This document shows positions 3,503 to 33,618 of a stretch of DNA of 64,000 bases, piece by piece. The translations under genes were made by a program, and so were the position numbers. Location: the NCBI RefSeq assembly GCF_029891735.1, contig NZ_JANQDH010000078.1, forward strand, positions 1 to 64,000, in the 5' to 3' direction. Below the pieces are notes generated by a model. That model did not search any database and was not told the DNA's origin. It saw only the letters and a list, made by a program, of their open reading frames with translations. Source of the stretch: Chrysosporum bergii ANA360D (GTDB lineage Bacteria; Cyanobacteriota; Cyanobacteriia; Cyanobacteriales; Nostocaceae). How positions within the stretch are numbered: position 1 is the stretch's first letter; every line of letters starts with the position of its first letter.

Positions 3503-3615
3503 TATTTGATTTTTACGGCTGAAATTGTGACAATTAAGAAACTGTCACATATTAGACTTGCTTTTTGAGTCAACAACACTATATTCTATTGATGTGTGAG
3601 GAGCAAGTTAAAAGT

Positions 3616-3662
3616 AAAAAGCGTTTGGGGTGGAAACACGGCAACACTCCCAGGCGCTTTTT
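3616..3662 (+). terminator. Hairpin terminator after purH
   Basis: AAAAAGCG (3616-3623) pairs with CGCTTTTT (3655-3662), with an imperfect GC-rich inner stem (TTTGGGGTGG against CACTCCCAGG). The A/T arms make it bidirectional in appearance, and it ends in a T run on the plus strand. Confidence 0.65.
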
Positions 3663-3712
3663 AATTCTTGTCTACCTCCGTAGCAATCAGGGGATAATAC
3701 ATTTATATTAAT

Positions 3713-25113: not shown

Positions 25114-25304
25114 TTGACCAAAAGAATGGGATGAGAGCTAGGTCCTTCTAGGGCCGCTTTTTAGTGTGTTATAATGCAGGAGTAGTCGGCATAGAGCATC
25201 GGCACGACTTTAAACGGACGGGGAGCGACTGTCAGACTACTTCAGTAGCAAGTTGCAGTGAACCGTCAAGAATCACCGATCTTCTAGGTCGGTGATTATG
25301 TCAA
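25114..25304 (-). mobile_element. MITE with IS200/IS605-like ends, copy 2 (reversed)
   Basis: Read on the minus strand it runs from TTGACATAATCACCGACC (hairpin with AGAAGATCGGTGATTCTTG) through ACGGTTCACTGCAACTTGC and GTCGTGCCGATGC to GGCCCTAGAAGGACC and CCCATTCTTTTGGTCAA. It therefore has the same blocks in the same order as copies 1 and 3, with small differences. Its left end lies against the next gene: the possible start codons at 25292 and 25298 of that gene are inside or at the edge of the element. Confidence 0.8.
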
Positions 25305-25969
25305 TAGAGGGGAAAAGTCTGAAAGTCATGATAGAACACAATCAGAGCCTAGGAAATAAGCCGAACCAAGTCAAAGAGACAAATATTCAATCCCGACTTA
25401 TTGGTAGTTCAAAGATTTTTATCTGTCTGCTGACTCGTCATCCAGGGTTATTGTTAACTGGGTTATTAACAATGACTATGGGAACTGCGGCTTTAGCTGT
25501 ATATAGCTTGAGTTACGTTGGCGATGTTAGTAAACCAGAACCGGAAGAAGTCCCAGTTATAGTAGAAAAACCAATCATAACATCCTCTGAGAATAGCAAT
25601 CCTACACCCTTATGGCTAGTAGTTGCCATTGCTCTCAGTTGTGCTAGTGGTTGCTTAATCATTTTTCGGTTAGTCAATTCACCTGATCAATATCAACCAC
25701 CAGGGAAACCCATCAAAAGTAATAGCCCTTCAAGACGCTTAAGAGCAACTTATCAGCCGGAATTGAAACCGGAGAGTTTAAATAGTTCGCCGGTTTTTGT
25801 ACCATTGCAACCGCTAAAGCCCGTAGTCAGCACAGCCAAGTTAGAGTCCCGGGTCAGGGTTACATCACCAGAACATAGACACAGAGTAGATAAAACTCAA
25901 GAAACCTTGGCAGATTTAATGGATATTCGTAAAAAAAGTTCTTTGTCTACAATTCTACAAAAACATTAA
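25298..25969 (+). CDS. Hypothetical protein with two membrane segments
   Basis: I do not recognise this protein. About 223 residues contain two hydrophobic segments (LLLTGLLTMTMGTAALAVYS near residue 55 and PLWLVVAIALSCASGCLIIF near 105) separated by a short acidic, proline-rich loop (KPEPEEVPVIVEKP). A basic, proline- and serine-rich soluble tail of about 100 residues follows. Start choice is uncertain: GTG 25292 and ATG 25298 lie at the edge of a MITE, whereas ATG 25328 (MIEHNQSLG) lies outside it and may be the original start. None has an ideal ribosome binding site. The insertion must have replaced the native upstream region. Confidence 0.6.
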   Translation: MSIEGKSLKVMIEHNQSLGNKPNQVKETNIQSRLIGSSKIFICLLTRHPGLLLTGLLTMTMGTAALAVYSLSYVGDVSKPEPEEVPVIVEKPIITSSENSNPTPLWLVVAIALSCASGCLIIFRLVNSPDQYQPPGKPIKSNSPSRRLRATYQPELKPESLNSSPVFVPLQPLKPVVSTAKLESRVRVTSPEHRHRVDKTQETLADLMDIRKKSSLSTILQKH

Positions 25970-26174
25970 TGTGTTCTGAAAAATGCAACAATGGTGCAAG
26001 TTTCAGTCACTAGCCATGAGAAAAATTGAAAAACCTGCCAAAATGGCAACCACATTGAAATTAAGTGAGTTAAATTGTAGAAGACAAAAAACAACCAGGT
26101 TTTTCTTCAAAGAAATAACCAATAACTGATTAATCTTGATTAATGATCAACAATCAGTGGTTAGATAATTAATT

Positions 26175-26350
26175 GGGCTTGGTATTTGTCGCACCAGGAG
26201 TATTAAATCCATACAAGTGTTGTCATTGACATACACATTAGCCCCCTAACTAAAGGACAACGCTTGTAGATATTCCTGATCACTACAGTGACAAATACCG
26301 GAGTGAGAGGTTAAAGGCGCTTGATATGCCTCCTCTCACTCTTTTTTTTT
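26175..26350 (+). ncRNA. Candidate structured small RNA with nested stems and terminator
   Basis: Three nested stems can be drawn: GGTATTTGTC (26181-26190) with GACAAATACC (26290-26299), a perfect match; AGGAGTAT (26196-26203) with ATATTCCT (26270-26277), one G-U; and TACAAGTGTTGTC (26212-26224) with GACAACGCTTGTA (26256-26268), one G-U. Directly after comes GAGTGAGAGG (26301-26310) pairing with CCTCTCACTC (26332-26341), an extra inner AGGC/GCCT, and nine T: a strong intrinsic terminator. No ORF covers it. The 5' end near 26175 is inferred from a possible -10 (TAGATAAT, 26162-26169). The rod-like shape recalls 6S RNA, but I cannot show identity. An alternative is the 3' UTR of the upstream gene, 200 bases away. 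Confidence 0.55.
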
Positions 26351-26403
26351 GATAAAAAATTGGTCTTTTGCAAAAATTCCACGACAAGGGATAATTACGA
26401 ATA

Positions 26404-32527: not shown

Positions 32528-32821
32528 TCAATATATTTTACCACGCTCCTCCTCATCCTTTCTCGCCAAAGCAGCACGATATTGGGCTTCACGTCTGAGC
32601 CAAAATGCTGCGGTACTGCCTAAAACTCGTTCTAACTTCAATGCCGTTTCTTCATTAATAGGTGCTTTGCCATTAATGAGTAAACTTATATGTTGTGTGG
32701 TGTAGCCTAAACGCTCTGCTAATTCTGTTTGTGTCCAATCACGTTCTTCTAGTACATCAGCAATGGTATCACCGGGAGGAGATACCCAATCTGGAGTAAA
32801 GGGACGGGTTGTCTTAGTCAT
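32528..32821 (-). CDS. higA: HigA-type antitoxin
   Basis: This is a 97-residue XRE-family helix-turn-helix protein. FTPDWVSPPGDTIADVLEERDWTQTELAERLG followed by ISLLINGKAPINEETALKLERVLG is the typical HigA/VapI signature. It neutralises the upstream toxin and represses the operon. The frame is open further upstream, but the ATG at 32821 fits the family start and overlaps the toxin gene by 8 bases, with GGAGATTACC just before it. It sits inside an island bounded by repeats of tRNA-Cys. Confidence 0.92.
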   Translation of the reverse strand: MTKTTRPFTPDWVSPPGDTIADVLEERDWTQTELAERLGYTTQHISLLINGKAPINEETALKLERVLGSTAAFWLRREAQYRAALARKDEEERGKIY

Positions 32822-33143
32822 GGTAATCTCCAATGAAAACAATACAAACAGCAGTAACCTTCGACCAATCAATGCTTCCATCCTCATTTAAAGGAATGGG
32901 GTTGTTATCTGGTTTAAATACAAGTCGTTTACCTCCTTCTAGGTCTACTGCAAACTCACCAGCCCGATCTCCTTTTAAGGGATGGGGACGACCTGCAAAT
33001 AATTCTGTGACACAATTAAGAGCATCAAGATCAGCCAATGGGGCTGCCAATTTCTTAGCACAGTTTGCACCTAATTTTCTTTGTGCTAGTTTTGGTTGCT
33101 CGCATAGGTTTTGCAGTTTGTCGTCAGCGAAGGAAATTTCCAT
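32814..33143 (-). CDS. higB: RelE/ParE-fold toxin of the HigB type
   Basis: This 109-residue toxin is encoded before its antitoxin, the order typical of higBA. MEISFADDKLQNLCEQPKLAQRKLG and the stretch LADLDALNCVTELFAGRPHPLKGDRAGEFAVDLEGGKRLVFKP match the RelE/HigB (killer-protein) pattern. The basic residues of the last strand (KRLVFKP) are likely part of the active site. It is expected to be a ribosome-dependent mRNA endonuclease. Overlap with higA ensures coupled synthesis. It is the first gene of the only operon inside the tRNA-Cys-flanked island. Confidence 0.85.
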   Translation of the reverse strand: MEISFADDKLQNLCEQPKLAQRKLGANCAKKLAAPLADLDALNCVTELFAGRPHPLKGDRAGEFAVDLEGGKRLVFKPDNNPIPLNEDGSIDWSKVTAVCIVFIGDYHD

Positions 33144-33485: not shown

Positions 33486-33592
33486 AATAGGAACGAATAT
33501 CAAACCCGTTCCTGTATAAATACTCGGTCTTGGGGGTGCTTGTCCAAGGCGACACCCGGATTTGAACCGGGGGATAAAGGTTTTGCAGACCT
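33486..33592 (-). repeat. Right direct repeat, part of intact tRNA-Cys (candidate att site)
   Basis: 107 bp nearly identical to 32340-32445. It covers the tRNA-Cys from the anticodon loop to the 3' end plus 62 bp downstream, with the hairpin AGGAACG/CGTTCCT that may terminate the tRNA transcript. The repeats end in the anticodon region, which is a common crossover place for tRNA-targeting integrases. Confidence 0.85.
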
Positions 33593-33618
33593 CTGCCTTA
33601 CCGCTTGGCTATGTCGCC
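33548..33618 (-). tRNA. tRNA-Cys (GCA)
   Basis: On the minus strand a 71-base cloverleaf can be drawn. The acceptor arms are GGCGACA (33618 downward) and TGTCGCC, the D arm is AGCCAAGCGGTAAGGC, and the anticodon loop is CTGCAAA with anticodon GCA. The T arm is CCCGGTTCAAATCCGGG and the discriminator base is U. CCA is not encoded. A displaced copy of its 3' half lies 1.15 kb away at 32400-32445. Confidence 0.95.

Follow-up and report, generated by a model that had tools for sequence, protein, structure and literature searches.

A conserved rod and terminator in an intergenic gap

The window, a stretch of 64,000 nucleotides from Chrysosporum bergii ANA360D, contains, by its ORF list, a gap free of open reading frames at 25970–26403, of the 434-bp length given in a preliminary description of the sequence. 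A 225-aa gene (25292–25969) lies upstream on the plus strand, and a hybrid histidine kinase gene faces the RNA, as in that description. The nested complementary segments and the following hairpin with nine T that it described were all found in place, and an upstream promoter-like region and leader can be added. The features are as follows.

26036–26048, plus strand: palindrome TGCCAAAATGGCA, an operator-like promoter element, centred some 39 bp ahead of the predicted start; a second set of exact sites in six genomes
26071–26076, plus strand: −10-like hexamer TAAATT (TANNNT), 22 bp after the palindrome
26081–26172, plus strand: predicted 5′ leader, its start placed from the homologous NsiR8 promoter layout
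26173–26299, plus strand: conserved rod of closing, middle and apical stems (fold, covariation and R1 match)
26181–26192 / 26288–26299, plus strand: closing stem, GGTATTTGTCGC / GTGACAAATACC (sequence and fold)
around 26195–26200 / 26273–26278, plus strand: middle stem (sequence and fold)
26212–26224 / 26256–26268, plus strand: apical stem of 13 bp (sequence and fold)
26225–26255, plus strand: apical loop; its C-tract (CCCCC, 26242–26246) is conserved among copies
26301–26350, plus strand: intrinsic terminator, a conserved hairpin at 26301–26341 followed by nine T at 26342–26350

Folding of the plus strand between 26160 and 26370 gave −68.7 kcal/mol against a shuffle mean of −42.6 (z −6.0; 0 of 200 shuffles as low), in line with the earlier claim that the pairing exceeds chance, and the longer segment 26080–26350 reached a z of −7.2. 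The minus strand also folds better than its own shuffles (z −4.2), as the nested repeats would be expected to produce; the T run after the hairpin marks the plus strand as the RNA strand.

The stems are further upheld by covariation. Alignment A2 comprises the 30 BLASTN matches whose loci were listed, aligned by sequence alone; 98.2% of its cells pair, both sides have changed in 11 of 39 pairs, a count that none of 500 shuffles reached, and pairing falls to 41–50% when partners are slid by one to three columns. A covariance model of 178 positions and 39 pairs, R1, was built from A2 and matches the window at 26173–26350 with 197.9 bits. Alignment A3 was assembled from 55 matches fitted to R1 and therefore leans towards the model; among its rows are multiple copies from a single genome, a copy that has decayed (L046 4381) and a weak match on the reverse strand (L087 5120–5311). 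In A3, both-side changes affect 26 of 39 pairs (0 of 500 shuffles as high) and 99.4% of cells pair in the outer stem of the terminator hairpin. Stem alignment in relatives, the check proposed in the preliminary description, thus yields compensatory changes in plenty in both alignments. Of the 121 distinct copies, all but L105 and L130 (119 copies) have an apical tract of at least four C, most commonly in the contexts UUAG-CCCCC-UAAA or AUUA-CCCCCC-UAAU, and the C-rich stretch is predicted to be unpaired in the consensus structure.

Distribution and copy number

R1 matches 202 of the 217 genomes of the window's family, f1, including 195 of 206 good-quality ones, while BLASTN finds matches in 156 of the 217. 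Six of the eight genomes from genus g7 are among the 15 that gave no R1 match, as is G211, for which BLASTN reported a hit at 9e-5. Sampling across the order gave matches in 67 of 388 genomes and sampling across the phylum in 41 of 386, all of them in f1; both scans applied strict filters and kept few candidates for each genome, so that distantly related copies may have escaped detection. Loci named in a search by terminator pattern include Nodularia, Nostoc, Anabaena, Dolichospermum, Calothrix, Tolypothrix, Cylindrospermum and Sphaerospermopsis. We take family f1 to be essentially the heterocyst-forming clade. Matched in 55 of the family's 56 genera and nowhere outside it in the samples searched, the RNA is a candidate clade-defining part, and R1 could become a new Rfam family.

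By table count, 48 of the 202 matching genomes carry two or more R1 matches, with a maximum of nine in G195; these 48 include G096, which has 38% contamination. The second copy type forms a single clade of 28 rows with support 100/98, its paralogue label B having been assigned from leader type before the tree was made. In G195, L046 4381–9105 is an array of nine units in tandem, about 570 bp apiece, in which every unit has a promoter and the RNA; the core of the first is decayed. The C. bergii genome itself holds a single copy, besides two short BLAST hits at chance level.

Among neighbouring ORFs at 60 loci, the clusters comprise an alpha/beta hydrolase (25 members), an uncharacterised membrane protein (24), a D-Ala-D-Ala ligase (19), rubrerythrin (11) and transaldolase (7). 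In the window the gene for the membrane protein is retained upstream, and the kinase gene takes the place that the hydrolase has in many relatives. Neighbours vary between copies while the RNA persists, which argues for action in trans. At L130 6171–7529 (Anabaena subtropica FACHB-260), a 311-aa gene splits the promoter and leader from the core, and this core has no C-tract; separation and loss occur together, as expected if both elements were needed.

A conserved promoter layout extends the predicted gene

Conservation far upstream first became apparent from the tandem copies. Among 127 copies in total, 121 are distinct, and three of these with short flanks were left out of promoter counts; the exact palindrome TGCCANNNTGGCA lies within 300 nt upstream of 116 of the remaining 118. 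All 116 palindrome-bearing copies have TANNNT 17–26 bp past it, exactly 22 bp in 115 and 18 bp in one. Across 234 loci, this composite pattern is absent from 51, and outside copies of the RNA it matches only L221, L224, L226, L229 and L234, together with the separated promoter of L130. The distance from palindrome to start presumably suits a class II activator site, and the odd-length dyad, T-N11-A, recalls what we take to be the pattern of LysR-type boxes.

When the first position of the NsiR8 Rfam model is taken as a transcript start, the corresponding start in the window falls near 26081. The RNA gene very probably begins there, about 95 nt before the start given previously, and by this analogy would span about 26081–26350. 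The predicted length is 261 nt to the hairpin end (our length script, which stops the hairpin 4 nt early in window-type terminators, printed 257). The earlier estimate of about 175 bases left out the 5′ leader. Leader sequence is conserved within lineages. When RNAalifold was used to look for a consensus fold of the leader, one alignment set yielded five or six weak pairs at best and another none; single leader sequences, that of the window included, do fold.

Together, the family-wide conservation, the compensatory stem changes and the conserved promoter layout argue that the preliminary description was right to propose a structured non-coding RNA with a terminator, and the locus is almost certainly a genuine gene for a small non-coding RNA, with a conserved promoter and terminator of its own.

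The promoter layout is shared with NsiR8

The exact 13-mer TGCCAAAATGGCA occurs at four sites in the C. bergii genome, compared with one for the reversed control. One site belongs to the window RNA, and another, L234, precedes a homologue of NsiR8 that scores below the RF02593 gathering threshold but aligns to its Nodularia counterpart, L226. The fourth site, L229, lies near an unrelated gene; there the layout fits on the other strand, and no conserved partner of the site was found.

PMC4734099 reports NsiR8 of Nostoc sp. PCC 7120 as a heterocyst-specific sRNA that depends on HetR and whose transcription takes place in developing heterocysts. The arrangement of TGCCANNNTGGCA, 22 bp and TANNNT is found at NsiR8 in L226 1501–1716 (G104), L224 1501–1717 (G198) and, by alignment, L234 from 1501, and the RF02593 model starts 45 nt after the start of the palindrome in L226 and 42 nt after it in L224. 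Like NsiR8, the window RNA is a small RNA with its own predicted terminator; unlike it, the window has no sequence or structure match to RF02593. The two RNAs lie about 7 kb apart in G198, and linkage to NsiR8 was found in 0 of 13 window-type loci scanned. Just 3′ of NsiR8, cyano_het_sRNA (RF02596) is present at L226 1940–1995, L234 2061–2116 and L224 1841–1896.

In three genomes (loci L221, L222 and L225), the exact palindrome TGCCAAAATGGCA stands near 1501, 3′ of a heterocyst commitment gene of the HetP family; of these loci, only L221 has the 22-bp layout. A further transcript start may exist at these sites. That the palindrome is common to the window RNA and the heterocyst-specific NsiR8 gives a direct handle on a transcription factor.

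Comparison with known RNA families and earlier sRNA lists

No Rfam 15 family reaches its gathering score in the region; relaxing the limit to E up to 10 yields ten hits in the gap, all below gathering, the best with an E of 0.13. Yfr-type Rfam families likewise have no match in the region. A likeness to Yfr1 is the conserved unpaired C-rich motif, as the Yfr1 motif is described in PMC4734099, where Yfr1 is about 54–57 nt long and present in every genome analysed.

PMC4734099 gives 327 predicted sRNA entries for PCC 7120, of which two in its Table 1, 268249f (340 nt) and 2462444f (258 nt), are confined to heterocystous genomes in that study and nitrogen-induced with no need of NtcA or HetR. Their lengths are near the predicted ones of the two paralogues in G005, a genome of family f1 (318 and 250 nt), from which they differ by 22 and 8 nt. 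As this comparison is of length and not of sequence, the two entries are a lead only to the PCC 7120 copies of the window RNA, and other entries in that table, for example 6274486f and 39081f, could also be counterparts. If 268249f and 2462444f were the same RNA, their independence of HetR would fit badly with NsiR8-like control. Placement in PCC 7120 through G005 coordinates was rejected, since the anchors nblA, hetR and the Yfr1 motif fit no single rotation and coordinates could not be transferred; the place of hetR in PCC 7120 was itself our estimate from locus-tag numbering. A coincidence between G005 coordinate 2.53 Mb and 2462444f was dropped after this mismatch. The window RNA is not named in the examined portion of the text of PMC3610870. 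Literature searches for 2462444f, 268249f, 6274486 and the NsiR8 promoter returned only PMC4734099, and one for GCCAAAATGGCA in cyanobacteria returned no paper.

Possible function and alternative explanations

We suggest that a dimeric activator would bind the palindrome near −39 and switch the gene on; NsiR8 might be induced along with it, when nitrogen is short or as heterocysts develop. The resulting transcript of about 260 nt (26081–26341 plus the U run) would end at its own terminator. More tentatively, the rod may display the unpaired C-rich loop, which could pair with G-rich sites in mRNAs and make the RNA an antisense regulator in trans. In keeping with such action, the RNA has, as far as sequence can indicate, a predicted promoter and an intrinsic terminator of its own, at loci that are not tied to one target gene. 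The target pattern TTAGGGGG N2–14 ATG was less frequent than its reversed control in 15 of the 16 family genomes listed and slightly more frequent in one; with no enrichment of this start-codon pattern, the conserved loop is the one ground for the antisense model. We consider the chances of the antisense mechanism to be about even, and judge the whole proposal, a heterocyst-lineage sRNA gene that is controlled by an activator and acts antisense in trans through its C-rich loop, to be evenly balanced too.

The absence of enrichment among simple start-codon targets, along with the long imperfect rod and conserved loop, would also suit an RNA that has no mRNA targets and instead uses its rod and C-rich loop to bind or sequester a protein, be it RNA polymerase, a nuclease or some other RNA-binding protein. 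This is conceivable but on the unlikely side: the Rfam searches matched neither 6S nor any other protein-binding RNA here, and a conserved unpaired C-tract suits base pairing as well. Another alternative, 6S RNA or a diverged second 6S, was suggested by the rod-like core of under 200 nt, and the preliminary description had remarked on the resemblance. It did not survive comparison with RF00013, which hits nothing in the region and whose single match in the C. bergii genome at E up to 10 is the 6S RNA at G000:C42:3277–3459 (101.6 bits). The window RNA is a separate gene with no large central bubble; its internal loops are small and uneven, and the conserved part is at the apex. A 6S identity is accordingly highly improbable.

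The 225-aa gene on the same strand could suggest that the locus is the 3′ UTR of an upstream gene, or else an mRNA for a small protein. Across 117 predicted transcripts, however, the longest ORFs have a median of 22 aa compared with 30 aa in shuffles, the RNA has its own promoter layout, and upstream genes differ between copies, so that we regard both forms of this explanation as very unlikely. The nested inverted repeats and the tandem copies of some genomes, nine in G195, might instead indicate a mobile or repeat element. Against this, the C. bergii genome has one copy, the plasmids and phages searched gave no match and viral contigs none by pattern, copies of the second type form one clade with recurrent neighbours, and the stems carry compensatory changes; the probability of such an element is close to negligible.

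Returning to the window RNA, we propose, as a tentative reading that falls somewhat short of even likelihood, that it and NsiR8 constitute one undescribed heterocyst-lineage regulon under an activator reading TGCCANNNTGGCA near −39. In that case the RNA would have a core role in post-transcriptional control during nitrogen starvation or the development of heterocysts, and most heterocyst-formers would have retained it, some with tandem amplification. The HetP-family locus may also belong to this regulon.

Other features of the window

A Cyano-1 RNA (RF01701) is located at 3590–3665 on the plus strand with 54.7 bits; we take this family to be the Yfr2 sRNAs. The minus strand carries a tRNA gene (RF00005) at 33547–33618 and, at 32528–33143, overlapping ORFs of 119 and 109 aa that by eye resemble an antitoxin–toxin pair of the HigA/HigB type.
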